A DNA stretch of 64,000 nucleotides, from contig SNVD02008158.1 of NCBI GenBank assembly GCA_013180625.2, positions 1-64,000 of the forward strand. Direction: 5' to 3'. This stretch comes from Boswellia sacra (Eukaryota; Streptophyta; Magnoliopsida; Sapindales; Burseraceae). Position 1 is the stretch's first letter; each line of letters starts with the position of its first letter. The translations under genes were made by a program, and so were the position numbers. Shown one piece after another: positions 203 through 56,961 of this stretch. Under the pieces are notes generated by a model. The model ran no database searches and was not told the DNA's origin. It was given only the letters and a program-made list of their open reading frames with translations.

Positions 203-865
203 ATGGAGGGAATTTCAAAACGTCGAATCCAAAGGATATGTGTATTCTGTGGATCTCGACCAGGTAAAAGTGAAGAGTTTGTCGAGGCAGCAAATTATCT
301 TGGTAGATTACTAGCTGAAAGAAAGATTCATGTGGTTTATGGAGGAGGTAGCCTCGGGTTAATGGGTTGCGTATCAACAGCTGCACATGTAGGAGGTAGT
401 CAAGTGTTAAGAGTTATTCCTAGAGTTATTCCTAAAGCTTTGGCTGTAGAAAGTATTGTTGGAAAAACGGTTGGGAAGGAGTTACAGGTCTCCTCTATGC
501 ATGAACGCATGGCACATATGCTCATCAATTCAGATGCCTTTATTGCTTTACCAGGTGGCTTTGGCACTCTTGAAGAAATTTTTCAAATTGCCTCTTGGGC
601 CCAACTAAATCTCCATCAAAAACCCATAGGTTTGTTGAATGTCAAAAACTTCTTTGATCCTTTGATAAGTTTTATTGATGCAGCTGTGGAACAAAATTTT
701 ATCCCTCATTCAGCGAGAAAGATCCTTGTTTCTGCCACTTCTGCTGGTGAGTTACTTGACAAATTACAAGAAGTTGAGTATGAACCTGACCCAGCTAGTA
801 CTCAAATTAATTGGGCAGGAGGGCAAAACAAAAATTGCAAATTGGATTTGAATCTCCATTTGTAA
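203..865 (+). CDS. LOG-type cytokinin riboside 5'-monophosphate phosphoribohydrolase, intronless retro-copy
   Basis: LOG enzymes release active cytokinin bases from cytokinin nucleotides in the cytosol in one step. This 220-residue frame has the family's nucleotide-binding motif YGGGSLGLMG (about residue 48-57), a conserved Arg in SMHERMAH, the signature PGGFGTLEE, and a C-terminal ending like INW...KLDLNLHL, as in the divergent plant LOGL branch (recalled, not searched). Plant LOG genes normally have several introns and this frame has none, so it derives from a processed mRNA. It sits inside an LTR element, and a second, frameshifted copy is at 46142-46793. A 12-bp tandem duplication near 410-433 adds four residues (RVIP repeated), which may disturb the fold. 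The ATG at 203 matches the conserved start of the second copy. Expression or activity cannot be judged from sequence. Confidence 0.85.
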   Translation: MEGISKRRIQRICVFCGSRPGKSEEFVEAANYLGRLLAERKIHVVYGGGSLGLMGCVSTAAHVGGSQVLRVIPRVIPKALAVESIVGKTVGKELQVSSMHERMAHMLINSDAFIALPGGFGTLEEIFQIASWAQLNLHQKPIGLLNVKNFFDPLISFIDAAVEQNFIPHSARKILVSATSAGELLDKLQEVEYEPDPASTQINWAGGQNKNCKLDLNLHL

Positions 866-2186: not shown

Positions 2187-3715
2187 TGATGAACACTTAA
2201 ATATGCATGTTTAATAAGAGTTTAGTTCATCATATTGCATTAATAGTGTCATTAAATTCCTCAACTTAAGCATATTTGTAGCATTTGCATCTTTGGAATT
2301 AATTTCTCTTAATTTTGGTTTTGTTACAGGTTCGGTAAAATGGCATAACTCTCTATTTATAGATCAGAATGGTGCAATTCTTAATGTTTTGGAAAGCTGA
2401 TTCAATTTTCTACAAGATTTCATTTCACAAGCATAATCAAATTCGAGCTTTTAGTGGACCAAAATTGGGCTTAAAGTGAACCCATCTACAGTCTCAGCCC
2501 AGTCTGACCAGGCCTCAGTATTTGGACCGTATCTCTCAAAATACGTATCCAAATTGTGCAAATCAATATGTTCTAGAAATCTGAGAGAAATATCTACAAC
2601 TTTCATGAAGACATGTGATTAAAATTCACAACATTTCGATGTCAAAATTGATGGTCAAAGTCGGTGCCTAATGATCCCAATTGTCAAAGATATTTACAAC
2701 TAATATTTGACAATTATGCCCTTGTAATTTGACAAGTTTGCCCCTGGATGTATCTATAAATAGAGGTGCCTTGTGACCCATTAGGGCATCTTGGCCTTGG
2801 CTGGAACATTTTGGCTTTGGCTAGGATCTTGTATTGTGTTTTGTGTGTTTATGTTATTAATGAATTTCCTTTTTCTTGCATTTTATTTTCTTTCTATTAT
2901 AATGTTCTTCTAATTTCTCTTTTGCTAAGGTGAAAGGGTGAAACCCTTGATATGAGAATAAGGATTCTCTAACCCTTAATATGTGCTTAATAATCTTAAT
3001 CTTATAATTGTTTATTCAATATGATTTATATTTAATTTCTTAATCAATCTTGACACCACTCGTAAAGTGGAGGTCTTGATCCATTGTCGACAATCCTTGG
3101 CGCATCAAATGCTTGGATCCTTTCTAGATGATGTATGGTTCTTCCTTACCGACACAAATCTAGTTAAGAACCTTGATTTGTTGTAGACATATGGTGATTG
3201 GCATATTGGATGCTTGAACCCATTTACAAGAAGTGGTATAAATATTGGTAATGAAACAAATATAATTCATATAACTAAAATGGGTTAATTATCCTTATTT
3301 GAAATATCAAGGGCGGATCCCCTAACCTTAGCCTTCATTGTTATTGTGTTAATTCCTCTTGTATTTTAATTATTCTATTGTTTATGAACTTTTTATTTTA
3401 TTTACTATGGTAGGTTCTACCACCTTATGAAATTGTTCTTTAATTTACTATGGTTGGTTATACCACCTATTTCCATGGATGGTTTTACCTCCTCTTGCTT
3501 TTTGTTTTATATTTGAATGGTCGGTAATACCGCCTACCATCTTACATATTTATTGATATTATCTTGTCATTTCTTTGAATTATTCACACCATATTTGCTT
3601 ATCTTATAATTTGTAACGCTAAAATTCCCTTCCTCGTGGATCGACCTCGGTCTCACCGGGATTATTACTTCGACACTCCTATACTTGGGAGACAATCCTA
3701 TTTTCGAATGTGTCA
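2187..3715 (+). repeat. 3' LTR of element D
   Basis: The 1529-bp LTR begins TGATGAACAC and ends GTGTCA. It aligns along its length with the LTRs at 41924-43048 and 48731-50095. It holds a likely promoter TATA box (CTATAAATA at about 2754-2762). It is longer than its relatives because of a short-repeat expansion at about 3405-3545. As a 3' LTR it would supply the polyadenylation signal and could drive outward transcription to the right. Confidence 0.85.
3405..3545 (+). repeat. Short imperfect palindromic repeats within the LTR
   Basis: Four variants of a unit resembling TGGTNGGTTNTACCACCT occur in a row, each partly self-complementary (GGT…ACC). The corresponding part of the element C LTRs lacks this expansion, which accounts for most of the extra length of this LTR. 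Confidence 0.55.
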
Positions 3716-6700
3716 CATATCATCTACATATGGCACTTTGCACTGTGTGTGGCATTTCGTGCTTCTCACACAATCTCAAGAGGTGGCCCTATGCAGTCAT
3801 GTCATAATATATAAGGGTGCTACGGACAATGAGCCAAAAATTTTTTCTTATTATAACTTATAATATGGAATACTGATTTCAAAATTTGTATAAATCTCAA
3901 AATACTTAAAATAATCCTTTGCATAATAAATTTATATACGAACTTTATTTCTTAAACCAATTGTTTGCTTAGAGAACATTTAAAACCAAGATAATTGATT
4001 TGAAAAGCATTTTAAAGAAACGTTAAAGTATGAAGTTTTGAAGATCTTTTGATAAATGAGTTAAATGATTAAATAAAAGCAAATTTTAGAAAACAATTTA
4101 CTTTATTAAATATCTAATTTAATAAAACTAAAAAGATCTTTGTTGTTTAGAAGCCAGATATATAGAAAACTAGCTTCCATTCATGAAAAACTATAAAACT
4201 TAAATTTAAAATTATATCGGTTTTCACATATGTCAAATAAAGCACACTAATGTGAATATCATTTACTTAAATACTAATTTCAAAATATCCATAAGAACAT
4301 GTATTTTTATGAAAGCTATACTTTATATGGAAATAAAACTATATATATTCATAAAATACTTGTAAGCATAAACTATTATTTGAAACTATCAAAGACTTTT
4401 ATGTGTTTTTTCAAAACCACTATTGAAAGCACCATAATTTTATTTCAGTAAAAACAATTTTTTTTATAATAATAAATAGTAAAAAAAATATAATAAGTGT
4501 TGAACTTGTAGTTTTTGATACTTATAACAAAATGTATAACTTATAAAACATTCTTACATAGACACTATACATAACATAAGAATCATTTCTACTATCAAAC
4601 ATATTTTTAATTATGCATGTAAACTAATCATATTAAGAATGATTATACTTACCTCATACTTGCAGACCATATATCATATATCTTTTAGTCACCCATCCAA
4701 CATCTCTCAATCGTCTAACAAAAATGAAACATAATTTGATCATGTGAATATCCATCACAATTTCTCATCAAATATAAAAACTCCCATTCCAACTCAAAAC
4801 CCGATTCAGTCTCTTCAATAACAACGTAAACGAATTCTTTCTCATACAACTAAAGAGTCATCATCTCCATACCAAATGAACCAAAGATCTCATAATTATT
4901 ATGCTCGAATCAACACAATAAGAATACCAAAATTTATCTCATCTAATCTCTTAAGTTTAAAAATCTCCAAACTATCATTCCTAATTACAATACTTCCACC
5001 TTTAAATCATAACAATGCAAATTCTCTCATTTTTAATAAATTATCTAACCCCCAAGGTTTCCAATATCGTACAGAGACGTAGTAGACATTTTAATCTTAG
5101 AAAACAAAAGGTATCCAAACATTTTGGGTTCAAAAAATCCTTCAAAGAAATCATAATTTAAGAAATATCAATTCTGGTCATTAGATTACAAGATTAACAT
5201 CCGTTACTTTGTAAATATGAAATAATTTGCCATCAATTTGTAAAATCATAAAAACATCCAAAATGAAACTTAACATGCCAAATAAGAATTCTTTAAAAGC
5301 TCATAACTTTATGAAAATATGACCAACTCAAAATCAAATTTGTACTTCTAACATTCTGTTGAAAATAGTAAATTCAAAAATTTCATAGTCTTATTTTAAA
5401 AATAATTAGAAATAAATTACTCAATCATTTTCAATGAAACTAATTTTAAAAGAACTATTTTCATGTCTACTATAATATATAAGAATTTTAGAACGAAAAT
5501 CAGTTTCAAGCCATACTTATGATTTTCAAAAATCTAAAGATTAGGTTTAGAATCAATATTTTCATAATCTTTTTGCCAAATTTAAAAATTAATGAAAAAT
5601 CATATCTTTCATATTCTGATCTAAAATAAAATTTAAATAATTCTTGGTACATATGTTTGAACTTATAAAAACATGGAATTCAAAATCAGAGTGTAAATAA
5701 ACTTAGACACTTGATAATAGTTAATTATCTCACGTAAGGTTTGTAAGTCGAGATCTTCGATCTCAAACTCCAACCACTTACAAAAACCCATAAATCTAAT
5801 ACAATTAAATATTAAATCATTAAAATATCAACCCTTAGATATTTTATAAATCATCATGTCATATACATTAGAATTAACCTGATGAATCCAAGAAATATAA
5901 ATTCTTGAACTTAGTTCTAATCTTGGTAGTTCAAGCCAGAACAACACTCAATCTCAGATTTTTAATTCCCAAAATAATCATTTAACTCTACATATTTAAA
6001 AAAAATAAAATAAAATTGCGGATGTTACATTTACCATTAGTTTTGTTTGTTTAATTGAATTATATTTTTATTTTTAGCTCTCTTTTTTTTTTTTTGTTGA
6101 GGCTGTTATCTATGAGCATTTCGTATTTATATTGGATAACATTCACCAGTAAAGTTTTGAAAATTTTGTTTGAAATTTAATGATATAGTTATTTGATTCA
6201 ATATTTCTCCTCAATAAAGTTTTTAAAAAATTGCTTGAAATTTAATGATAAAGTTATTTGATCAGTATTTCTCGTTACGTGTTCTTTGCTTGGTAATTGA
6301 ATTTGTTCTGTTCATGTCCTCTCTTGTTTTGATTTTTAACTTGATTGGTATTCTATTTGTTTTTATTCGTTTAAATTTAATGTGTGATGAATGCAAGTTC
6401 ACATATTTGCATGCAATTTGAAGCAGTCTTGTTGATTTCAACTTGTTTGAGGCTCTACATCTTTGTACAAAAGCGAAGCTATTACACCCAAAATTATATG
6501 CTCAACACTCATTTTCTAAATACAACCCATAATTCATCATATGATTTTTATTTATTTTTTCATGATTCTTATGTTGATGAACTATCTTTGATTAGGAGTA
6601 TCACGGGCCATGTACTTCAAAGGAAAGGCAGTTTTGGCCTTTGGGGTGGTAATTAGTTGGAAAGTAATGGCCAAAATGTGTTTCTTGGGCGTTTGAATAT

Positions 6701-14485: not shown

Positions 14486-15314
14486 TTAGTCCTTTTGTCG
14501 ATGCAATGTGCTGCCTTCCAAAATCTCTTTATCACTTGCAACATTACTTATAAGTGGCTCCCCATCGCTACTTGCAATGACATCACCAATGCCACCCCTC
14601 ATATCATTTTCTTTATTATCAGGTGAAGCATTGAAATTACTCCCCCTCACTTTGTGGGCCTCAGTCATACCATGTGCACCACCAAGATTTTGTCTCATGT
14701 CCTGAAGATCAAATTCCTTTTTAGCATGGTACCCTTCATTGATGCCCATTTGGTTATAATTAATTCCTTCCTTTGTCAAAGAGTTCGATTCATATGGGAA
14801 TTCGACTTCACAAAATGCAACATCTCTTGAAACAAAGAATTCGTTTGTGTTCAAATCATAAAGTCGCCATCCTTTTTTTTTCAAAAGGATATCCCCCAAA
14901 AATACAACATCGTCCCCTACTTGCAAATTTATCCTTTTCTCTATTTATATTTCTACCATAGCACAAAAAACCAAAAGTATGAATATGGTTATAGGAAGAA
15001 GGTTGCCCAAACAACATTTCATAAGGGGCTTTTCCGTTCAACAGAGCGGAAAGAGTTTGATTAATAAGGTATCCAGCTATAAGTACATATTCTCCCCAAA
15101 ATTCCATAGGAATACTAGCTTGGAATCGTAAAGCTCTAGCAACATTCAGGATATGCTTATGTTTTCGCTCAACACGCCTATTTTGTTGAGGCATGTCAAC
15201 ACAAGAGGTTTGGTGCACAATCCTAAGTTCAAGAAAATATTCTTTCAAAGAAAACTCTGTCCCATTATCACTCCTAACAACTTTAACTCTTTTATTATAT
15301 TGTAGTTTGACCAT
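14486..15314 (-). pseudogene. Copia A integrase core and C-terminal linker
   Basis: The minus-strand frame 14856-15314 carries the second catalytic Asp in VVRSDNGTEF and the Glu in PQQNRRVERKH, where NGVVERKH is usual. It continues with the conserved WGEYVLIAGYLINQ and GKAPYEMLFG blocks. The first Asp region upstream is broken by stops. The frame overlapping at 14486-14926 continues as the poorly conserved hydrophilic linker between integrase and RT. Confidence 0.87.
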
Positions 15315-15476
15315 AATGATAAAATTTCAAAGAGTTCAACCAACTTCAGTTTTATCATTAAGTAAATATAACCAAACAACTATTGAGAAATCATCTACGA
15401 CAGTTAAAAAATATGAGGCACCATAAGAGGCACGAATTTGATAAGGTCCCCACAAATCACAATATATCAATTCCAA

Positions 15477-16362
15477 TTATTCTTTTGCTTTATTGTTACT
15501 AGAAACAAAGACATCTATAGTCTGTTTTGCCTTGAAACAAATTTCACACATTTTATTTTCATCACTATTGCTACTAGCATTTATTCCTAGAAGCAATTTA
15601 AACAACCTTTTATAAGGATGTCTTAGCCTCTTATGCCATAATTTAAATGAATCAACACCACTTGCCTTGTAGGCCTTTATTGAAGGTGTTCCTGCAAAGT
15701 AATAAAGCCCCCCACATAGCTCACCCATACCAATCACTGTCCTCGTAGTAGGGTCTTGTATAATGCAAAATTTGTTAGTGAATTGGATACTATAATTGTT
15801 CTCGTTGAGTAATTTTGACACAGAAATCAGATTGCATTTTAATTGAGGCACAAATAAAACATTATTTAATTTTATGTGATTGTTCAAAGTCACATCTCCC
15901 TCCATTGTGGCATGCGCTTCTCCTCCATCGGGTAGCCCTATTAGACAACTGGTCACTGTCTTTGTATTAACCAAGCCAACAAAATCACAAGTCATATGAT
16001 GTGATGCTCCTTATCAATTATCCACCTTTTTCTCACTCCTGTACTTGTTAACTTTTCATTATTGTTCGATTTGCATGAATTGAGCAATTGCATCAGACTT
16101 TCCCATTGTTCCTTCGACATTCCTATAAGTCCTAGGCTAGCATCAAACTTCTCACAAGTTAGTGGCTGCTCTGAAGCTTGAGCAGCATGTGCCCGAGCCA
16201 AAACTTCTCGACCACGTTTTCCTGCACTCGCAACTTGACCTTCTCAGCCTTGTCCAATCCCTCGTCCGGTCTGGGTCTATCAACCCACCAATCGGGGTAT
16301 CCAATGAGCTGAAAACAGCTACCTACATCGTGTCCCTTTCGTTGGCAATTTGAACATGTCAC
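15477..16362 (-). pseudogene. Copia A zinc knuckle, protease and GAG-pre-integrase region
   Basis: A CCHC zinc knuckle is read as CSNCQRKGHDVGSC at about 16315-16360. The protease active site should read WIID(S/T)GAS-HH, but at about 16010 it reads WIIDKEHHI, so the catalytic Gly-Ala segment is deleted and the protease is dead. Downstream, 15477-15995 holds the rest of the protease and the GAG-pre-integrase motif LWHKRLRHP with a CEICFKAKQ zinc-binding pair. Confidence 0.85.
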
Positions 16363-22751: not shown

Positions 22752-23059
22752 ACTGTAGATAGGTTTACTTCAAGGCCAATTTTGGTCCACTAAGAGCCCG
22801 AATTGGATGATACTTGTGAAATGCAATCTTGTAGATAATTGAATCAGCTTTCCAAAACGTTAATATTTGCACCATTCTGATCTATAAATAGAAAGTTATG
22901 CCCATTTTACCAAACCTACATCAAAATCGAAATTAAAAGAAAGTTAATTCAAAGGATGTATAGACTACAAATATACTTAAGTTGAGGGATTTAATGACAC
23001 TATTAATGCAATATGATGAATTAAGCTTTCATTAAGCATACATATTTAAGTGTTCATCA
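22752..23059 (-). repeat. Truncated LTR of the element C/D family
   Basis: On the minus strand it begins TGATGAACACTTAAATATG at 23059 and follows the first 300 bp or so of the element C and D LTRs up to CTACAGT, then stops. Only the LTR start is left. It abuts a broken copia B on its right and the 133-bp repeat on its left. This is a third member of the family in the window. Confidence 0.88.
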
Positions 23060-24240
23060 GTAGACCCGCAGTCCTTAGTAACGCTCTCATTCTTTCTATG
23101 AGAGTTCTATTTATCCGCTCTGCCACTCCATTTTGTTGTGATGTGTAAGCAACTGTCTTTTGTCGTTTTATACCTTCTTGACTACAAAATACGTCAAACT
23201 CCTTGTTGCAGAATTCTCTCTTATTATCTGTCCTCAAACACTTGATCCTTTTTCCGGATTCAAGTTCCACATGTGCTTTGAAGGCTTTAAATATAGGAAA
23301 TACATCTGACTTTTTCTTGATGACATATACCCAACATCTCGTAGAATAATCATCCACAAACAATACAAAATAATTTGCTCCTCCTAGGGATGTAACTGGT
23401 GATTCCCAAACATTAGAATGAATCAAGTCTAGAATATTTTTACTCCTAGCAATAGATCTGCTAAAACTCAGTCTATTCTGCTTGTTAATAACACAATGCT
23501 CACAGAATGGTAAACTTACAGTTTTAATTCCAGGAAGCAGTTTTCGATCAGAGAGAATCTTTAAACCCTTTTCAGACATATGGCCAAGTCTTTGATGCCA
23601 TATCACAGACAATTCTTCTCCAGAACTAGCAACCACTGTTTCTGCCTCCTGAATAGTTTCTCCATGGAGCATGTATAGGTTAGCAGCAATCTTTTCTGCC
23701 TTCATCACCACAAGTGCACCTCTGACAACCTTTATGATCCCATTTTTCATATGGAACTCACATCCGAGGTCATCCAACTGTCCCGTTGATTGCAAATTTT
23801 TCTTCAAGGCAATCACATGTCGTACATCTTGGACGGAGTGAATTTTACCATCAAACATTTTTATTTTGACGGTTCCAATACCAGTGATTTTTAAGGCATG
23901 ATCATCACCCATGTACATAGATCCTTCTGAGATAGGCTTATATTGATAGAACCAATCTCTTCTAGAAGTCATATGCCATGTTGCTGCTGAATCAATTAAC
24001 CATATATCAGCAAACCTTTTTTTGCCTTCCGCAATAGTTGTTGCCTCACCGCACAAGATTTCGCCATCTCCTGAAGTACTTGCTACACAACCCTGAGATC
24101 CTGACGACTCAGATTCTTTTCCTTTGCTATTTCCCTCTCCATTCTTTTTAAGATGCCAACACTCGTTTTTCACGTGCCCTTGCTTTTCACAATGGTAGCA
24201 TTTATCAAACTTCCTTCCTTTAGACTTTCCCCTGTTCTAA
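23060..24240 (-). pseudogene. Copia B zinc knuckle, protease and integrase (truncated)
   Basis: Reading down the minus strand: the knuckle CYHCEKQGHVKNEC, the protease site LIDSAATWHM (Ala where the catalytic motif normally has DSG), the GAG-pre-integrase zinc site WHQRLGHM…FCEHC, then the integrase core. The first catalytic Asp of integrase appears as HSNVWES, where HSDVWGP is usual, so Asp is replaced by Asn. The second Asp (RTDN) and the Glu (QQNGVAERINRT) are present. The 375-codon frame 23046-24173 is open but ends at the junction with the LTR fragment, so it makes no complete polyprotein. Confidence 0.87.
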
Positions 24241-41811: not shown

Positions 41812-41923
41812 CTACCTAAGCCTTGGAGACTTTCTAACTGGCGGAGAGGTGGAGCTACCAGGGCGTTTGATGGATTTGCGAGCCATAGTTTTAAACCGAT
41901 GCCTAGGAGTGGAGGTAGGATGA
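41812..41923 (-). pseudogene. C-terminal end of the Sire-like extra ORF
   Basis: The minus strand reads RHRFKTMARKSIKRPGSSTS, then PPVRKSPRLR and a stop, a strongly basic tail. It is the continuation of the extra ORF at 50096-51960, cut apart by the insertion of element C at 41924. Confidence 0.7.
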
Positions 41924-43048
41924 TGATGAACACTTAAATATGTATGCTTAATAAGAGCTTAATTCATCAAATTGCATTAATAATGTCATTAAATTCCTCA
42001 ACTTATGCATATTTGTAGTCTTTGCATATTTGGAATTAACTTTCTCTTAATTTTGGTTTTGATGTAGTTTTGGTAAAATGGACATAACTTTCTATTTATA
42101 GATTAGAATGGTGCAAATCTTGATGTTTTGGAAAGCTGATTCAATTATCTACAAGATTGTATTTCACAAGAATCATCCAATTCGGGCTCTTAGTGGACCA
42201 AAATTAGATTTTAAGTGAATCTATCTATAGTTTCGCCCTAGCCTGACTATGCCCCAGTATTTTGACCATATCTCTCAAAATACATATCCAAATCATATGA
42301 ATCAAGATGTTCTAGAAATCTGAGAGAAATATCTATGACTTTCATGAAGACATGTAATTAAAATGCTCAATAATTCAATGTCAAAATCGGTGGTCAATGT
42401 GGTGCACCTAATGATCCCAATTGCCAAAGTTTGTTCACCTAATATTTGACAAATTTCCTTTGTAATTTGACAAGAATAATCATAATCTTGTGTTGTTTAT
42501 ATGATTTATATTTATTTCTCTAATCAATCTTGACACCATTTGTAAAGTGGAGGTCTTGATCCATTGTCGACAATCCTTGGCACATCAAATGCTTGGATCC
42601 TTTCTAGATGTCGTATGGTTCTTCCTTACCGACACGAATCTAGTTAGGAACCTTGATTTGTTGTTAACATATGGAGATTGGCACATTGGATGCTTAAACA
42701 CATTTACAAGAAGTGGTATCAATATTGGTAATGAAGTAAATATAATTCATATAACTAAAACGTGTTGTTATCCTTATTCGAAATATCAAGGGCGGATCCC
42801 CTAACCTTAGCTTTCATTATTATTGTGTTGATTTCTCTTGTATGATTCTCATTTATTGTTTACAAACTTGTTCTTACCTATATTTGTTGATATTATCTTG
42901 TCATCTCTTTGAATCATCCATATCATATTTGCTTACTTTATAGTTTGTAGCGCTAAAATTTCCTTCCTCATGGATCGACCCCGGTCTCACTGGGTTTATT
43001 ACTTCGACACTCCTATACTTGGGAGACAATCCTTTTTCGGATGTGTCA
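41924..43048 (+). repeat. 5' LTR of element C, with promoter deletion
   Basis: The 1125-bp LTR runs TGATGAACAC to ATGTGTCA. Compared with the 3' LTR it lacks about 238 bp (3' LTR positions 49283-49520). The junction is at about 42474/42475 (GACAAG joined to AATAATCATA). The missing part includes the putative TATA box and the probable transcription start, so this copy should not be able to start its own full-length transcript. Confidence 0.88.
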
Positions 43049-43054
43049 AGTTTT

Positions 43055-43072
43055 TGGTGCCATTGCCGGGGA
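43055..43072 (+). other. Primer binding site of element C (tRNA-Asp)
   Basis: TGGTGCCATTGCCGGGGA lies six bases after the LTR end. It matches the complement of the plant tRNA-Asp 3' end (TGGCGCCGTTGCCGGGGA) at 16 of 18 positions. tRNA-Asp priming is usual for Athila-like gypsy elements. Confidence 0.88.
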
Positions 43073-43243: not shown

Positions 43244-44920
43244 ATGGGCTCCATAAATCTTAGAAAAACTTGTGCACAATCATGCATAGTCTTCCCTCAT
43301 GATGCAATACATTTCAACCATGAACCAAATTTCATTCAATTTTTACCCCAATTTCATGGCCTAGATGTTGAAAACCCATTTTTGCACTTGAGAGAATTTG
43401 AAGAGTTTTGCAATACATATAGTGACCTAAATTGTAGCATAAACATCTTTAGATTAAAGCTTTTTTCTTTTTCTTTAAAAGATAAAGCTAAAACATGGCT
43501 ACAAAATCTTAGGTCAGGATCCATTAGCTCATGGGATGAAATGCAACAACAATTTTTTAAAAAAAATTTTCCTCCTTATAGAACAGATTCTCTCAAAAGG
43601 CAAATCATCAATTTCAATCAAAAACAAGGAGAGACCTTTTACCAATGTTGGGATAGGTATAAAGCATTGCTTAATACTTGTCCTCACCATGGTTTAGAAA
43701 CATGGAGACTAGTTTTAGTTTTCTATGAAGGTCTTACACATCAAGCTAGGCAAATGGTAGAATTAATGTGTAATGGACAATTTGAAAATAAAGACCTTGA
43801 TGAAGCCATGGATTTCCTAGACTTACTAGCAAAAAATGCCCAAAATTGGAACAATGTTGGCACCTATGAGGTACCAAGAACATCTAGTAGAGGCATATAT
43901 AACTTTAGGGAGAATCATGATCTGCATGCTAAATTTACATCCCTAGCTAGAAAAGTCGAGGACTTAGAAATGTGGTCTATTCAAGAAATTATCTGTCACA
44001 CCTGTAATTCTAGTGATCATCCAATGGATGATTGTCCAAAGGTGCCTACCTTTAGAAAAAGTCTCCATGAGCAAATCAATGTTTTAAACACTTTTCAAAG
44101 GTCAAATCCTAATCCTTACTCACAAAATTTTGGATGAAAAAATCACTTGAATTTTGATTGGAGGAATGATAATCATGCACAATCTTACCAACCTCCCTTT
44201 CAGTCATATCAAAATTTTAAAAAATCTCATGATCATACATCTTATGAGGATCTTGGAGAAATATTGGATTCATTCATTGCAAAGCAAGAGGCTTTTAATA
44301 GTCAAATTGCTCAGACTATGGCAAATTTGAATGATGCTCCTGACAAACTTGCATTTGCACTTAGTACTCATGAGAAAGGTGAGTTTCCATCTCAACTAGA
44401 GCCAAACTCCATCAATCCACATATGAGTAATCCAAGTGGCCAACATCTAGACGAAGATTCGGTCAGTACTCTTCATGATGGTAAAGTTGATAAAGAACAT
44501 ATTCTTAACCCTTATGAGAAAGATGATGAATCAATCTCAAAGGGTAAGGAAGAGGTTAGTAAACCTACAACTAACAAGGAAGAGATCGAATCCTCACTTA
44601 TACCCTCATGTCATCATGCAAAGGAACTTAACCAAAATTTTAACATTAATGAATTTTTTAAGCATGATGAAAATGAGGAAGCTAATAAGACTAAAATTAA
44701 TGTGGAAAACTACATCCAAAATGAGAATTTTTCAAGTCCTTCAGAAATCTGGTTAACTAGTTCATTTGAACCAAGTATGCAACTAGTGCCCATTGCTTCT
44801 AAAGAAATTTCATTGCTTGATTTTGTACAGGTGAAGGAAATTAAGAGTTGGGAGCCATTTTTGAAAAAAGGCAGGAAAAAACATCCACACTCAAGAATGC
44901 GTGCCTCAAGGACAAACTAA
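43244..44920 (+). pseudogene. Gag polyprotein of element C, one in-frame stop
   Basis: Gag forms the particle that packages retrotransposon RNA. Residues about 30-200 are a Retrotrans_gag domain (GLDVENPFLHLREFEEFCNT, KDKAKTWLQNLRSGSISSW, GETFYQCWDRYKALLNTCPH, HGLETWRLVLVFYEGL). A CCHC zinc knuckle CHTCNSSDHPMDDC follows at about residue 250. A TGA at 44135-44137 divides the frame. The same frame resumes and stays open to 44920 with an acidic, Asn/Glu/Lys-rich tail and a basic end (KKGRKKHPHSRMR). A single stop implies a fairly young copy or readthrough. Confidence 0.85.
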
Positions 44921-45250: not shown

Positions 45251-45928
45251 TTTCTTCTCTCTCATTTTCTTCATATGGATACCATTCTCTCAAAATTGCA
45301 CAAACATTTTCCCTCTCTTCCTCAAAATGATTTGCTTAAAATTTACAAAGCTCGCGCAGAAAGACTAAGGATGTTGATGTGTAAGGGTATGCATGTTGAA
45401 GTAAGATGGTTAATTGAAGCCAAGGTTCGATTTTCTTATGAATTTTCAGATAATCTTGTTTCTCACATGCCAGCTATGGGAAAAAGCTCTTACGCCAAAA
45501 AGCGAAGAGCGTAAAGGTTACAAGTTTGTCCCAAATGTGTAAGATGGACTTGTAACCAGCGTTGCCGCTCCTTGGGATATTTGTCTAATAATCGAGAGGA
45601 TAAACTATAGTTCATCAAGAATGGACTGAGTAAGGAGTCTTTGGATGATATCCGAAAGACTCTTGAGACGCATTCTTGTGGACTTGTGCAGCGTGAAATT
45701 TTTAAACCGTGGACACAATTCCGAGATGAGCAGGAACGCTATAGTCTTGGGAATCTGACTCAAAACGATCCTGTTTACCAGTTTATAAGAAAACTGGATG
45801 GGAAACATATTCCCAACTCATAAAAGGTGTTTAAGCTGTTTCTGGACGTAAAACCAGAGGAAGATGTGAGCCACAGTCACAACTACCTGTACATATGCAT
45901 GCGTGCCATCATTTTTGAATTTTAATAC
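45251..45928 (+). pseudogene. Eroded second ORF of element C, unrecognised
   Basis: One reading frame stays coherent for about 225 codons with three stops before its end (near 45512, 45609 and 45821). It starts MDTILSKLHKHFPSLPQNDL and has IYKARAERLRMLMCKGM. A Cys cluster CPKCVRWTCNQRC looks like a zinc-binding site. Then come SLDDIRKTLETHSCGLVQRE, RDEQERYSLGNLTQNDPVYQ and KPEEDVSHSHNYLYICMRAI. It is not a pol domain. It may be a second captured host gene or an ORF proper to this retrotransposon family. Element D would carry it left of the window edge. Confidence 0.5.
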
Positions 45929-46141
45929 CTTATAGCTGTCATTTTTGAATTTATATCTTTTGTTTGACTTATAGTGTCTTATTTCATCATCTTTTTTTGA
46001 ATTTTTATGCATAATTGTCAAATTTTTCAACAAGCAACCGAGCTATGTATTTGGATGTCATCATTAGCATACCTTTTTGCACTCCATAAATACCGTATCT
46101 CTTGTTCTCTTCTTTACACATAGTTGGAGAGTTGCATAGAC

Positions 46142-46793
46142 ATGGAGGGAACTTCAAAACGTCGAATCCAAAGGATATGTGTATTCTGTGGATCTCGACC
46201 GGGTAAAAGTAAGGAGTTTGTAGAAGCTGCAAATTATCTTGGTAGGTTATTGGCTGAAAGAAAGATTCATGTGGTTTATGGAGGAGGTAGCCTCGGGTTA
46301 ATGGGCTGTGTGTCAACAGCTGCACATGTAAGAGGTAGTCAAGTTTTAGGAGTTATTCCTAAAGCTTTGGCTATAGAAAGCATTGTTGGAAAAACGGTTG
46401 GGCATGAGTTACAAGTCTCCTCTATGCATGAACGCATGGCACATATGCTCATCAATTCAGATGCCTTTATTGCTCTACCAGGTGGCTTTGGTACTCTTGA
46501 AGAAATTTTTCAAATTGTCTCTTGGGCCCAACTGAATCTCCATAAAAAAACCCATAGGTTTGTTGAATGTCAAAAATTTCTTTGATCCTTTAATAAGTTT
46601 TGTTGATGCAGCTATGGAACAAAATTTTATCCCTCATTCGGGGAGACAGTTCCTTGTTTCTGCCACTTCTGCTGGTGAGTTACTTGACAATTTACAAGCA
46701 GTTGAGTATAAACCTGACCCAGCTAGTACTCAAATTAATTGGTCAGGAGGGCAAAACGAAAAGTGCAAACTAGATCTGAAACTCCGTTTGTAA
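46142..46793 (+). pseudogene. Frameshifted LOG-type retro-copy in element C
   Basis: Same intronless coding sequence as 203-865, with YGGGSLGLMG, SMHERMAH and PGGFGTLEE all intact. An extra A in the run at about 46543-46549 shifts the frame after residue 140 or so (counted from the 46142 start), so the C-terminal third (LLNVKNFFDPLISF…) is read only from the next frame, at 46560-46793. It lacks the 12-bp duplication of the left copy, so that duplication is specific to element D. The upstream leader is conserved between the copies for at least 190 bp. Confidence 0.9.
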
Positions 46794-47221
46794 TTTTTTC
46801 TTGTCTTTTATTTTATTTTATTTTTAGCATTTTATTTTATAAGTCTTTCAGGTCATCTCTTTTGAATAACAGAAGCTTCAGGTAATGTCTCCTATACTTT
46901 ATCTCTCTATATTTAAACATTGAGGACAATGGTTCATTTGGTTGGGGGGAAAGGATAGTAGACATAAGTGTGTCTTGAATTTTCTTTTTCTTAAAAAAAA
47001 AAAAGCGGGTTAGTAATTAGATTCAAAGTGCGGTGTAAGGAGTTCAAATCCTCTTGAGACGCATTCTAGGTCAGGAATGACAGAGTAGAAAGGGTCAGTT
47101 TGAACTCTTGAAACACATTCTAACCAATTTTTCATTTTGTTTTGATTTTGCATTTTTTACGAGTCATTTTAGTTAACTTGATATTATTTAGTTTTGATTT
47201 TTGAATTTTATAACAAGGAGG

Positions 47222-47734
47222 TAGGGGTGGGAATTTTTGACACGACCCGCGAACACGACATGAACACGACACGAACACGCTAGACGATTAATAAATGGGT
47301 CGGGTTAGTGTTGAAGGTATTCAACACGCCAACCCGTTTAATGACACGAATAGTTAAATATATTTTGTATATCCTTAATATGTAAATTCATTCAATGATA
47401 TAAATTATTACCTACTTACAATATATATATTATAAAACTGAAATTTTTATACTATAAAATAAATTAATTTGTAAAATAATAAATTATGATGATTTTAATA
47501 ATATTTTATACTAACAATGGTTTATATTTTAAAAATAATTTTAATTGATTTAAATATAGAGAATATAATATATTATGTATAATTAAGTTAAACAATTAGG
47601 TAAATTATGCGAATTAAATATGACACGATTACGACACGTGGATAACACGTTTAATAATCGGGTGGGTTTGGGTTTCATATTTTGACACGAATAATTAAAT
47701 GGGTCGACACGACACGACACGAATCCCACCCTTA
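47222..47734. mobile_element. hAT-type MITE
   Basis: 513 bp with terminal inverted repeats TAGGGGTGGGAATT / TAAGGGTGGGATTC and a perfect 8-bp target duplication caaggagg (47214-47221, 47735-47742), as for the hAT superfamily. The subterminal parts are rich in ACACGACACGA. It is absent at the matching place of element D (about 1275), which gives a natural empty site. No coding capacity. Confidence 0.93.
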
Positions 47735-48339
47735 CAAGGAGGTCTTATTCATTTCACTTTGAATTATTCAAATCTATAAACTCTCATAACCTTATCATTT
47801 AATAAACTGTGTGCTTATGTACTCGTTAAGCAAGTATTCATGAACCTTTCTTCACATACACACATACCTTGATGCATGATTGTGGATGGGAAATGAAATA
47901 TTGCAATATTTGAGTTCTTTTGTTTTGTTTAGGATAACAATAAAAGGAAAGGGAAAGTAAAAAAAAAAAAACAAAAAAAAGCAAAAAAAAGTGAAAAAAA
48001 AGAAGAGAAGAAGAGAAAGCAATTGTGGATAAGTTTGGTCTCGTAGCCTCCTTAATTCGAGCAATTAAGCCCGAGGGGTTCCTCAACACTTAATACCCTA
48101 AGACCAACTGGTTTGGGAGCTATTGACCCAAAGCTTGCTACATGGATTAAGGAGAAAGCTGAATGGGATTGGACATTGCACTACCCACAAGTTTCTAAGC
48201 AAAAATAAAGCATCGGCAACCCGAGTCGTTAAGCTCGAAGGGGTGTCTTAACACCTAATGCCCTAAGGCCAACTGGTTTGGGAGTCATTAATCTAAGGCT
48301 CGCTACATGGGTTAAAGATGCATTCTTTCAAAATAAAAA

Positions 48340-48440
48340 ATATATATATATATTATATATATATATAATATACTATATATATATATATATATATTAGTTA
48401 TATATATATATCTATATATATACATATAATATATAAATAT
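48340..48440. repeat. AT-dinucleotide-rich tract in element C
   Basis: About 100 bp of nearly pure TATATA with small breaks. The same position in element D has only a short A-rich stretch (about 1860-1895), so this expanded after the copies separated. Confidence 0.85.
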
Positions 48441-48730
48441 AAATGAATGCCCCATACCTAAAGTTGTTAGCCTTAACAAATATTAGAATCGATATGGCTT
48501 CTTTCTAATAAGCCCCATAGTCATGTGTCGACTGAGTACAAAAAGAAGGTTTATTGATATCTTGACTGAAGGGTACATGAGTCATTAAAAAAATCGGTTG
48601 AGAGTTTGTTTGTTTGGATAAAATCAAGGAGAGTGTAATAATGACCACCTTGGCTATAAAATTCTATAAATCACTTCTAAATAATAATGCTTTAATTGTT
48701 AGGGACTAGCAATAAGCTGGTTGGGGAGCG

Positions 48731-50095
48731 TGATGAACACTTAAATATGTATGCTTAATAAGAGCTTAATTCATCATATTGCATTAATAGTGTCATTAAA
48801 TTCCTCAACTTACGCATATTTGTAGTCTTTGCATATTTGGAATTAACTTTCTCTTAATTTTGATTTTGATGTAGGTTTGGTAAAATAGGCACAACTTTCT
48901 ATTTATAGATCAGAATGATGCAAATATTGATGTTTTGGAAAGCTGATTCAATTATCTACAAGATTGTATTTCACAAGAATCATCAAATTCGGGCTCTTAG
49001 TGGACCAAAATTGGGTTTGAAGTGAACCCATCTATAGTTTCAGCCCAGCCTGACCATGCCTCAATATTTTGACCATATCTATCAAAATACGTATCCAAAT
49101 CATATGAATCAAGATGTTCTTAAAATCTGAGAGAAATATCTATGACTTTCATGAAGACATGTGATTAAAATGCTCAATAATTCAATGTCAAAATTGGTGG
49201 TCAAAGTGGTGCACCTAATGATCCCAATTGTCAAAGTTAGTTCACCTAATATTTAACAACTATTCCTTTGTAACTTGACAAGTTTGCCCCTGAATGTATC
49301 TATAAATAGAAGTGCCTTATGACCCATGAGGGCATCTTGGCCTTGCTGGGATCTTGTATTGTGTTTCTCTCTTGTGTTTTTATGCTATTAATAAATCTTC
49401 TTTTTCTTGCAATTTGTTTCCTTTCCTTTATAATGTCTTTCTAATTTCTCTCTTGCTAAGGTGAAAGGGTGAAACCCTTGATATAAGAGTAAGGATTCTC
49501 TAACCCTTTAATATGTGCTTAATAATCATAATCTTATGTTGTTTATATAATTTATATTTATTTCTCTAATCAATCTTGACACCACTTGTAAAGTGGAGGT
49601 CTTGATCTATTGTCGACAATCTTTGGCATATCAAATGCTTGGATCCTTTCTAGATGTCGTATAGTTCTTCCTTACCGACATGAATCTAGTTAGGAACCTT
49701 GATTTGTTGTTGACATATGGAGATTGGCACATTGGATGCTTGAACACATTTACAAGAAGTGGTATAAATATTGGTAACGAAGCAAATATAATTCATATAA
49801 CTAAAACGGGTTGTTTATCCTTATTTGAAATATCAAGGGCGGATCCCCTAACCTTAGCTTTCATTATTATTGTATTGATTTCTCTTGTGTAATTCTCATT
49901 TATTGTTTACGAACTTGTTCTTACCTATATTTGTTGATATTATCTTGTCATCTCTTTGAATCATCCATATCATATTTGCTTATTTTATAGTTTGTAGCGC
50001 TAAAATTCCCTTCCTCGTGGATCGACCCCGCTCTCACCGGATTTATTACTTCAACACTCCTATACTTGAGAGACAATCCTTTTTCGGATGTGTCA
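48731..50095 (+). repeat. 3' LTR of element C
   Basis: 1365 bp, TGATGAACAC to GTGTCA. It keeps the TATA box region (TCTATAAATAG at about 49300) that the 5' LTR has lost, so any promoter activity of this copy would point outward to the right, antisense to the surrounding Sire-like element. Confidence 0.9.
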
Positions 50096-52752: not shown

Positions 52753-54190
52753 TTATTTATTAGTGGAGATATGCTCTATGTATATCACCTTAGATTCTGC
52801 TAGTTCCCTTATAAAATGGTATCTAATATCAATGTGTTTTATTCTAGAATGCTGAACAGGATTTTTGGAAATATTTATTGCACTATTATTATCACAGAAC
52901 ACAGTTGTAGGCTTTTGTTCAATACCATAATCACTCAACATTTGCTTCATCCATAATAGTTGCATACAACAACTCCCTGCTGTAATGTATTCAGCTTCTG
53001 CAGTAGATAAAGAAATAGAATTTTGCTTTTTGTTTTGCCATGAAACCAAGTCAGTACCAAGATAAAAACATCCTCCTGAGGTACTTTTTCTGTCATCTGC
53101 ATTTCCTACCCAATCAGCATCACTAAACCCTGCAAGATAATCATTTGTTTTTTTAGAAAACCATATCCCATAATCACATGTTCCATGAACAAACCTGATG
53201 ATTCTCTTGGCTGCTGCAAGATGAGATTCTTTGGGACTTGCTTGAAATCTTACACAAAGCCCTACACTAAAGCTCAAATCTGGTCTGCTTGCTGTGAGGT
53301 ATAGTAGGCTGCAAATAATGCTTCTATACAAGCTTGCATCAACATCCTTTTCTGCATTATCTTTTGAAAGTTTTAGTTTAGTACTGATAGGAGTTTTTAT
53401 TGGTTTTGCATTCTCAAGCCCAAACTTCTTTACAAGATTTTTGGCATATTTTGATTGAGATATAAATATCCCATCATTCATTTGCTTAACCTGCAATCCA
53501 AGAAAGAAATTTAATTCTCCTACCAAGCTCATCTCAAACTCTTCCAACATCAACTTAACAAGCTCATTAATTTTGCTTTTGTTAGTTAATCCAAGAACAA
53601 TGTCATCAACATACATTTGAGCAACAATAAAATAGTTTGATGCATGTTTGATAAACAAAGTCTTATCATTGCTGCCTCTTTAATAACCTCTGTTAATTAA
53701 AAAATTTGTCAACCTTTCATACCAAGCTCTAGGAGCTTGTTTCAAACCATACAAAGGTTTGTGCAATTTGTACACAAAATCAGGATGTTTAGGATCTTCA
53801 AATCCTTTAGGCTATTCAACAAAAACTTCTTCATTGAGATAGCCATTTAAAAATGCAGTTTTAACATCCATTTGATGCAACTTAAAATCAAGCAAACAAG
53901 CAATTGCAAGTAGTAATCTAATTGATTCAAGTCTAGCTACAGGTGCAAAGGTCTCATCAAAGTTTATGCCTTCAACTTGTGTGTAACCTTGTGCAACTAA
54001 CCTAGCTTTATTCCTTACTACTTGACCACTTTCACATGTTTTACTTTTAAAAATCCATTTAGTTCCAATGACATTTGTACCTTCTGGCCTAGGAACTAAT
54101 TCTCATTCTTCATTCCTTTTAAACTGATTAAGTTCATCTTGTATAGCTTGAATCCACACCTCTTCTTTTAAAGCTTCTTTCACATTTTTT
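52753..54190 (-). pseudogene. Sire-like reverse transcriptase and RNase H
   Basis: The open frame 52753-53658 carries the RT active site QMYVDDIVLG, the conserved FFLGLQVKQ, the RH words SLLYLTASRPDLSFSVGLC, GFSDADWVGN, DDRKSTSGGCFYLG, SLSTAEAEYI and HIDIRYHFIRE. The N-terminal half of RT (53660-54190; KDFKVPRNKMW-like region) has scattered stops. The catalytic Asp pair is preserved but the polyprotein is not continuous. Confidence 0.9.
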
Positions 54191-54442
54191 GGCTCAACTA
54201 AAGAAACATAACATGCATGCCATCTGGTGTTCCAATGATAGAACTTGTTGGATGTGCCTTTTGAATCCATGTGGGTGGATCTTTTTTATCTTCATCATTC
54301 CGGATTGAACTTCCGTTCAAATCTGAGTTGTCAGATGTTATTGTTACTTCAGTTGTAACAACAACTGTTTCCTCCTTCATAACAAAATCTTTCTTTTTGT
54401 TGTTGTCTGAATTTGATTTTTTTGTATCTTCTGTGAAGCTGG

Positions 54443-55312
54443 TTATGCTTTCCTCTTGTGAGTACTTTGTATAATCATCAAGGTATCAAATACTACATTT
54501 GCAGATTCCATCACTACCTCAGTTCTCATATTGTAAACTCGAAATGCTTTACTGTTTTGAGTATATCTCACGAAAACTCTTTCATCACTCCCTGGATCTA
54601 ATTTTTCTAATAGTTCTCTGTCGTTTAAGATGTAACACCTGCAACTAAAGACATGAAAATATTTTAAATTAGGTTTTCTCCCTTTCAAAATTTCATAAGG
54701 TGTCTGGTTAGTGCCAAGTCTGAGAAAAACTCTATTTGAAATATAACAAGCAGTGCTTATTACTTCAGCCCATAGCCTCTTGGTCAATTTCTTGCTATTG
54801 AGCATCACTCTAGCCATCTCTTGAAGAGTTCTATTCTTTCTTTCCAAAATGCCATTCTGTTCAGGGGTTTTAGGAGCTAAAAATTCATGATCAATTTCAT
54901 GATATTTGCAAAAGTCAGCATAGCTAACGTTTTCAAACTCCTTGCCATGATCACTTCTTATTCTCACAATCCTTCCAATGTTCCTATTTTGCTCATTTTC
55001 AAGCTTAACACAAAGATTCTTGAAAGCTTCAAAAGTGTCAGATTTTTCTTTAATGAAATCAACGCAAGTATATCTAGAAAAATCATCCACACAAACGAAT
55101 ATGTAACTCTTACTTGTAATGCTTTCAATTTGCATAGGACCCATAAGATCCATGTGTAGCAAATTAAGTATCTTAGATGTGCTAAGATATGGATTTGATT
55201 TGTGTGAACTTTTGGTTTGTTTTCCTATTTGACATGGTCCACAAATTTTATTAATTTTGTCATCAAGTTTAAGGACTCCTGTTGCAGCACCTAACTTAAT
55301 TAATTTAACCAA
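54443..55312 (-). pseudogene. Sire-like integrase
   Basis: A 289-codon open frame has the zinc-site end CGPCQIGKQTKSSHK and a complete catalytic triad context: LLHMDLMGPM, IRSDHGKEF and PEQNGILERKNRT. It continues with AEVISTACYISNRV and GRKPNLKYFHVFSC. The triad is intact, so this is the best preserved part of the element, but it is cut off from protease upstream by stops. Confidence 0.9.
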
Positions 55313-55422
55313 GTCTTTGTAATTTAAGTGTCCTAATTTTTGATGTCACAATTCTAAATCCGAAATCCTAGCATGAAATGCAATTTCTACCAAATAACAA
55401 ATATCCGAAGATCTATTACCTT

Positions 55423-56961
55423 CTAAAATGCATTTACCGAAGTCATGTGCCTGGAATAACCGCTGTCAAAATACCACAAATCATTAGATGCATGATTAAG
55501 TGCAGTAAAGGCAACATGGCATACTGTTTTGTCTTTCTTAACCCACCGCTGTTGTGATTTTGGTAACAGTTTTAACTGTTTTGATCTTTTATGCAAAAAG
55601 TTCAACAATTTAAAGCATCTAGATCTAATGTGTCCCCTTTTTTCATAAAAATAACAAGTAGGAATGAATTTCCTTACCTTTTCAGGACTGGATTTGAAAG
55701 AACTCAGGGGAGAAACAAATATTTCACTGCTCTTGGAATTAGGACTTGATTTTGAAGAGTTAAGTTCAAAATTCTTACCTGATGTTGAAGCTTTAACAAA
55801 GACTATTTTTGATGGAGATGCAACATTACATTCAGTATACCCCAATCCATGTTTGTTGGAGTTGTCTCTTCCAAGGTTCAAAACTTGATCAAGTTTGGCT
55901 GCTCCAATTTTGAGTTGATCAACACACTTCTTGCTTTCAATTAGTTCTATTGTGATTTTCTCAATGTGTGCTATTTTGTCTATCAAAACAGTCTCAAGTT
56001 CTGTGATATGGTTTTCAGCATAAGCTTTTTCACATTTAAGAACTTCAATCTCCTTTTTCAAGGTGTTGATTTCTTCTTTCTGACTCAGCCATTCACCATA
56101 GAGTGCATTGTATGTTTCTTGCAACTCTTCATAATATTATGGTCTATCTTCATCATCTGAATGATCAACACTGACTTGACAATCTTCTGTTATGTCTGAC
56201 ATAACAGCTTTCCCTTTATCTGCTGCAGATGCTGTAAATGCAACAAAGTTGCTCAAGCAATCTTGATCTTCTAACTCCGATTCTGATTCATCACACCAGG
56301 TTGCTGTCAGCACTTTGTTTTTCTTCTTGAGATTAGCACATTCAGATTGAATATGCCCATAATCGGAACATTCATAACACTAAATCTGTCCTTTCTTTTC
56401 AGGTTGTTTCAGCTTCTTTTTATCATTCTCCTTGCTAAACTTTCTGAATTTTTCTACACTTGAGTTTGATGGTTTTCCTTGCTTCATTTTCCTGAAATTT
56501 CTTTTCATGAACTTAACATAATTTCTTGTTAGAAAAGCAATTTGTTTAGAATCAGTTTCATCAAGCTCATCACTACATTCATCATCAGATTTTTCAGCTT
56601 TCACATTAAATGCAATGCTTTTACCTTTTTGTTTCCGAGTACTTTGATTTATTTCAAAGTTTTGGAGAATGCCAATCAGTTCATCAACTCTCATTTCATC
56701 AGTGTTTTTAACTTCCTCAATGGCTGAAATTTTAGGTTGAAATTTATCTGGGATAGACCTAATTATCTTACTAACAACTTCTATATTAGTGAAATTTTTG
56801 CCAAGCATGTATGCTGAATTCGTAATGTGACATATCTTAGAGTAAAAATCAGAAATTGATTCATCCTCATGCATCATCATTCTTACCTTCCAATATGGGT
56901 AATTACTATCATCGAGAATATATGGTTGCATTCCAGATCCTGCATTGCGAATAAACTCCAT
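55423..56961 (-). pseudogene. Sire-like Gag and protease start
   Basis: The 56380-56961 frame starts MEFIRNAGSGMQPYILDDSN, then YPYWKVRMM, and jumps directly to MHEDESISDFYSKICHI, so the middle of the capsid domain is deleted. The 55423-56124 frame encodes a coiled-coil-like segment (EEINTLKKEIEVLKCEKAYA) and a knuckle CYFYEKRGHIRSRC in which the second Cys is Tyr. The protease site FDSGYSRHMT follows. A stop-rich gap lies between the frames. Confidence 0.87.

Follow-up and report, generated by a model that had tools for sequence, protein, structure and literature searches.

A virus-like CRP gene beside a tailed LOG gene in Athila-like retrotransposons of Boswellia sacra

The 64,000-nucleotide stretch of Boswellia sacra DNA analyzed here (the window, C4128:1-64000) revealed two members, elements C and D, of a highly multiplied retrotransposon lineage in which a CRP-like gene and a LOG gene lie side by side, and both genes evolved under purifying selection. 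The elements are Ty3/gypsy and Athila-like, the latter name resting on motifs seen by eye. LOG-bearing Athila-like elements were already known; what appears to be new here is the CRP gene and the tail of the LOG protein. An earlier note on this DNA had described a gypsy-type element with an intronless LOG at 203-865 and a second copy in element C. Both are confirmed, the second lying at 46142-46793; that account had neither the virus-like CRP gene nor the pol-bearing form, and it reported neither the tail nor the selection. The explanation as a whole, that Athila-like elements use a conserved CRP-LOG cassette on their host, acting on hormone and silencing together, seems to us about evenly balanced between true and false.

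The LOG frame of element D matched TIGR00730 above its cut-off (E 5.8e-48) and PF03641 (E 1.1e-35), with Arabidopsis LOG3 (At2g37210, structure 2a33; E 3.5e-60) as the best solved relative of its protein, and scored 102 bits, far under the cut-off of 300, with CtkRMPhLog, the NCBI cytokinin-LOG model. The left copy is open, as the earlier note stated, but its 220 codons are not the usual length of the family LOG, which is 216; the four additional residues come from a 12-bp in-frame duplication. This duplication adjoins a conserved segment, and a G-to-R change falls within a conserved segment; the window protein is therefore perhaps inactive, and its open frame need not mean an active enzyme. 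The 5' part of element D is missing because the window starts at base 1 of its contig. In the self-comparison of the window, D and C are 88-91% identical in DNA across LOG and flanks; the surroundings of the D LOG recur at 45936-49916, and the LTR recurs twice, at 41918-43048 and 48731-50095 (Table 1). Element C is flanked by GATGA and GTTGA, a candidate target duplication with one mismatch (by eye), and its primer-binding site is of what we take to be the tRNA-Asp type. A 511-bp insertion (47223-47733) with inverted-repeat-like ends and the repeat acaaggaggt on both sides (both by eye), absent from D, is a later-inserted small DNA element. Elsewhere in the window, a 308-bp fragment of an A-family LTR (22752-23059, minus strand) is 88-92% identical to the C and D LTRs, and minus-strand frames at 14856-15995, 23046-24173 and 52753-56961 resemble, by eye, Ty1/copia pieces.

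Table 1. Coordinates of the features of elements D and C in the window.
Feature	Position	Strand	Remarks
LOG ORF of element D	203..865	+	220 codons, ATG to TAA; profile and structure-database matches
3' LTR of element D	2187..3715	+	TG...CA ends; 97.7% identity to the 5' LTR of L039
5' LTR of element C	41924..43048	+	Self-comparison; shorter than the 3' LTR of C
Putative primer-binding site of element C	43055..43072	+	By eye; position matches that in L039 and L059
gag frame of element C	43244..44920	+	PF03732, E 8.2e-21; frame broken once, by a TGA at 44135-44137
CRP-like gene of element C	45275..45823	+	Two in-frame stops, no indels; intact homologue in L039
Non-coding block 3' of CRP, element C	45824..45905	+	Conserved between families A and B; end approximate
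LOG of element C	46142..46793	+	1-bp insertion
3' LTR of element C	48731..50095	+	Matches the 5' LTR of C in two pieces, 93.7% and 95.0%

A complete element of the same genome (L039, ~8.16 kb) shows the anatomy in full. Its LTRs are 98.17% identical, with TG...CA ends, the target duplication AGGCA on both sides and a primer-binding site directly after the 5' LTR, and they enclose a single gag frame (598 codons from stop to stop), CRP and LOG, in this order and with no pol. Four other copies (L040-L043) align with L039 only from just upstream of CRP; in front of that gene they hold pieces of gag-protease, RT, RNase H and integrase, Athila-like by eye. Among four pieces from three of these copies scanned against Pfam, RVT_1 was matched in L041 and L043, and RT_RNaseH, Integrase_H2C2 and rve in L043, where RVT_1 and RT_RNaseH precede Integrase_H2C2 and rve, the RT-RNase H-integrase order of Ty3/gypsy; the protease match of L042 was sub-threshold. 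Together with its upstream neighbour L059, L042 makes up ~11.5 kb with LTRs 97.85% identical, around which a target duplication was sought and none was clear. The pol-bearing copies are LTR-gag-pol-CRP-LOG-LTR elements, and L039 and element C represent a pol-less form, gag-CRP-LOG. Over 40 distinct places, three repeated ones being left out, the sequence upstream of CRP is pol-type in 22, gag-type in 8 and neither in 10. In the available text of PMC6317226 an additional RNase H (aRH) marks Tat; no second RNase H family was matched in the two L043 pieces scanned. Pol-less and pol-bearing copies have their sequence in common downstream of a sharp point just before CRP (L039 position ~3682) and differ in their gag regions, for which reason the pol-less form may have arisen by recombination and not simply by deletion. 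It would presumably use the proteins of the pol-bearing form, supplied in trans.

That the LOG-bearing form was itself mobile, as the earlier note held, is borne out by its multiplication. A 22-mer of the A-family LOG was found at 1,990 genomic places with up to 2 mismatches (reversed control, 0) and one of the B-family LOG at 4,963 (control, 0); the two sets of places may overlap, and the diverged copies L032 and L033 still match the A 22-mer. Family B was found with a host LOG query. Its LOG protein is ~67-69% identical to that of A in five of the six fetched loci, and tblastn detected CRP in four loci, with pieces 60-84% identical to that of A. In the B element at C4480 the LTRs are 92.7% identical mutually and have no detectable likeness to the A LTR; a 698-codon first frame, in which the protease match is only sub-threshold, is followed by CRP and LOG. 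The pair is common to two families with unlike LTRs. Between A and B, ~77 bp 3' of CRP align at 88%, and the rest of the CRP-LOG spacer no longer aligns. The ~80 bp after CRP (45824-45905; compared in L039, L042, L043, L044 and L046-L049) are more conserved between A and B than the coding sequence and vary less than CRP or LOG among A copies; RNA structure in this block found no support (z -0.41 and +1.13). A host segmental duplication in place of an element, for which nothing speaks beyond the shared flanks, was rejected as having next to no probability: LTRs, target duplication, gag and pol occur in one unit, the DNA recurs at thousands of places, and intron-bearing host LOGs have no element DNA in the fetched 3.1 kb.

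The protein encoded by the element LOG retains the features of its family. Residues P117-T122, E124 and R102 are invariant in 24 aligned LOG rows, except for the variable residues in between, and PGG.GT.E is present in 102 of the 120 relatives, among the matches listed; PGGxGTxxE and the conserved arginine presumably have a catalytic role. AlphaFold gave a model of the window LOG (pLDDT 80.9, pTM 0.79) in which the core matches 2a33 best (TM 0.93 by target) and the tail is unstructured. The element LOG would keep LOG enzymology and free active cytokinin from its riboside monophosphate. We consider it unlikely that LOG is instead a nucleotide enzyme for replication, which would hydrolyse AMP-like or N6-modified nucleotides near the replication complex and not act on the hormone. 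Retroviral dUTPases, which clean nucleotide pools, provide the analogy, and the fold is common to nucleotide hydrolases, with AMP complexes among the solved LOG-family entries; the closest solved relatives, however, are plant LOG3 and LOG8, and the conserved tail would be left without a reason.

This tail distinguishes the element proteins from those of the host. At the C-terminus of element-type LOGs, basic residues precede L[DN]L[TNS]L.L, and LxLxL lies within the last 14 residues in 96 of 115 of them (190-232 aa) vs 0 of 89 host LOG1/3-type proteins; the 19 without it, sorted by eye, comprise 11 that are shortened, 7 that differ at a motif position and 1 that ends otherwise. LxLxL is the EAR consensus, which recruits TOPLESS. 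These counts, together with the lack of structure of the tail in the model, would suit a protein that mainly recruits or titrates TOPLESS-type corepressors, with the enzyme fold as a carrier, but the catalytic motifs are kept as well and corepressor binding is putative; we rate this possibility, too, as improbable.

The CRP-like gene adjoins LOG upstream and encodes 182 residues in L039. Its protein matched PF05515 Viral_NABP (E 1.2e-7, 32.4 bits, cut-off 23) and PF01623 Carla_C4 (E 1.1e-6, 28.9 bits, cut-off 20.9), and at E up to 0.01 these families were matched by 29/30 and 30/30 aligned CRP members, respectively. A protein search returned 339 relatives, with Populus, Xanthoceras, Acer, Rhamnella and Orobanche among the 120 matches listed. 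In Rhamnella (Rosales), protein P0213 has CRP fused to LOG and P0197 has an integrase end fused to CRP, the integrase part being 71% identical to that of L043 over 105 residues; two Xanthoceras proteins have LOG fused to an Athila-like pol piece. A basic stretch precedes a four-cysteine finger, spaced C-x2-C-x4-C-x3-C in 89 of the 106 relatives of 170-210 aa. The finger quoted for a carlavirus in the accessible part of PMC8839810, C-x2-C-x12-C-x4-C, occurs in 0 of these 106, and because the spacing is never the quoted one the protein was not filed as a carlavirus CRP proper; judged by its sequence, it is a relative of the viral family. The PDB sequence search with CRP gave a single match at chance level (E 0.55), the scan of viral_contigs showed no relative of CRP and five distant LOGs (35-43% identity), and the structure model of CRP (pTM 0.29) was too poor for use.

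Host LOG genes stand apart from these copies. In this genome their exons account for 17 hits at 69-92% identity, which precede hits at ~57-63%. The comparison with host genes that the earlier note proposed was made on four fetched loci (two near-identical), which have introns at ~112/113, 136/137 and 184/185 of the LOG3 segment, two of them also at 79/80, and neither element DNA nor CRP within their 3.1 kb. The element LOGs read through the host intron places, as expected of capture from spliced mRNA. To this extent the capture proposed in the earlier note holds; capture by a single family does not, the pair being shared by A and B. A tree of 45 rows has a branch with 100/100 support that parts 26 element-type LOGs from 19 host LOGs; two of the 26 come from this genome and 24 are database proteins labelled by similarity, not by their own DNA. 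The element-type relatives belong to Malvales, Lamiales, Sapindales, Populus and, for CRP, Rosales. The acquisition of LOG looks old and single on these sequences, because two families with unlike LTRs share the pair and the element LOGs of several orders group apart from host LOG1/3/8; LOG would have been acquired once, long ago, from spliced host LOG mRNA. Several independent captures, or horizontal movement of the cassette between plants in place of one capture and inheritance, are distinctly unlikely: the host rows of the tree are only LOG1/3-like plus one LOG8 and its bootstrap is unsettled, which leaves room for them, but all 26 element-type LOGs lie together and the CRP-LOG order recurs in Rhamnella. 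Relatives of the element LOG are filed in databases as ordinary plant proteins, two of them (P0046 and P0082) being named LOGL10 in Populus entries, and counts of the plant LOG gene family may include retrotransposon genes.

Copies were also compared by dN/dS, as suggested in the earlier note, in pairs chosen among those whose LOG is open. For A against B, LOG has a dN/dS of 0.16-0.20 (three pairs, bootstrap 0.09-0.30; dS 1.15-1.35) and CRP one of 0.16 (one pair, 0.09-0.25; dS 1.15); the B copy used for CRP contains one stop and lacks an ATG where the aligned start lies. Within B, LOG pairs gave 0.11-0.23 (three pairs), and within A the range is 0.11-0.51 (six pairs), the highest with an interval up to 0.97. 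Among 33 A copies, nonsynonymous and synonymous LOG variants number 88:73 when present in at least two copies vs 139:40 for singletons (Fisher p 1e-5). Applied to CRP (27 rows), this test is not significant (71:38 vs 124:47, p 0.23), and the spacer control, read as coding, leans the same way as LOG without significance (p 0.12). For these counts 33 of 43 rows were kept for LOG and 27 for CRP; L020, L039 and L040 (same places as L001, L002 and L004), L019, L026 and L029 (near-identical to others) and L018, L032, L033 and L037 (diverged or partial) were dropped. In L032 and L033 the differences from L039 are commonest at third codon positions, in CRP and LOG alike.

A full LOG frame is present in 14 of 37 distinct loci and CRP is open without indels in 4 of 22 well-covered copies, rates that are not random samples, since L009-L038 were picked for an exact LOG 22-mer and L002-L008 for their similarity to the copy in the window. 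The many broken copies, with 23 of the 37 loci lacking a full LOG frame, are what would be seen if CRP and LOG were useless passengers spread with the element. We regard this as very improbable, since dN/dS is well under 1 in six LOG pairs (three A-B, three B-B) and in the CRP pair, and since most of the spacer no longer aligns whereas both genes do. Two families keep the cassette and purifying selection acted on it; therefore, the encoded proteins were of use to the element during its mobile period.

From the sequences we infer that the element manipulates a host hormone. Wherever the element is transcribed, LOG would increase the level of active cytokinin; CRP would have the nuclear role ascribed to carlavirus CRPs, that of a transcription regulator and silencing suppressor. 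According to the available part of PMC8839810, carlavirus CRPs are nucleic-acid-binding, can suppress silencing and are said to regulate transcription in the nucleus, and one is tied to a host factor linked with cell proliferation. Together, CRP and LOG would favour dividing or poorly silenced, element-expressing cells, and through them more new copies in the germ line. This explanation is tempered because the within-A CRP test with its spacer control, the finger spacing, the few open CRPs and the altered window LOG count against it. A bolder version is possible but rather doubtful: a retrotransposon lineage of rosids and asterids with a virus-like host-manipulation cassette, in which a nuclear zinc-finger regulator and a hormone-activating enzyme with a gained corepressor-recruiting tail would reprogram proliferation and silencing where the element multiplies.

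The origin of extra ORFs is called mostly unknown in the part of a 2020 review at hand (PMC7264820), and the cassette gives these plant retrotransposon ORFs a testable role. It also links a gene family of plant RNA viruses to retrotransposons and raises the question of which borrowed from which. If the cassette works as proposed, a genomic parasite would exploit a plant growth hormone in the manner of gall-forming microbes, but with thousands of copies lying within the genome itself.

Steinbauerova et al. (2011) reportedly described two Athila-like elements with a LOGL4-like extra ORF. The earlier note had thought the case unknown, and in this it was mistaken: the YgdH domain, otherwise present in LONELY GUY proteins, is already in print for consensus sequences of LTR elements from two Citrus species and, once a filter was switched off, from Populus trichocarpa, in line with Steinbauerova 2011 (PMC9289625, in its available text). 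Those elements resemble the present ones in having a LOG-type domain as an extra gene of plant LTR elements, but for them that text says nothing of a CRP partner, a tail, copy numbers, selection or a form without pol. The open-licence literature searched yielded no description of CRP genes in these elements, of the CRP-LOG pairing, of the tail or of the selection. Ty3/gypsy elements of orchids that carry an m6A RNA demethylase domain are alike in that a host-type enzyme ORF was acquired and kept; they differ in the enzyme, which is active in vitro there, and in the plant group (PMC9289625, same text). Extra ORFs are common in the Ogre/Tat/Athila group, as stated in the accessible parts of PMC7264820 and PMC6317226. 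The former describes plant aORFs as without similarity to other TEs or viruses, whereas CRP is virus-like here, and the survey in the latter, as far as its accessible part goes, covers eORFs of at least 250 codons only, which leaves ORFs of 182 and 216 codons under its threshold. Carlavirus CRPs, as presented in the available part of PMC8839810, share with the element protein the Pfam family match and the basic stretch just before the four-cysteine finger; they differ from it in the spacing of that finger and in their carrier, which here is a retrotransposon.
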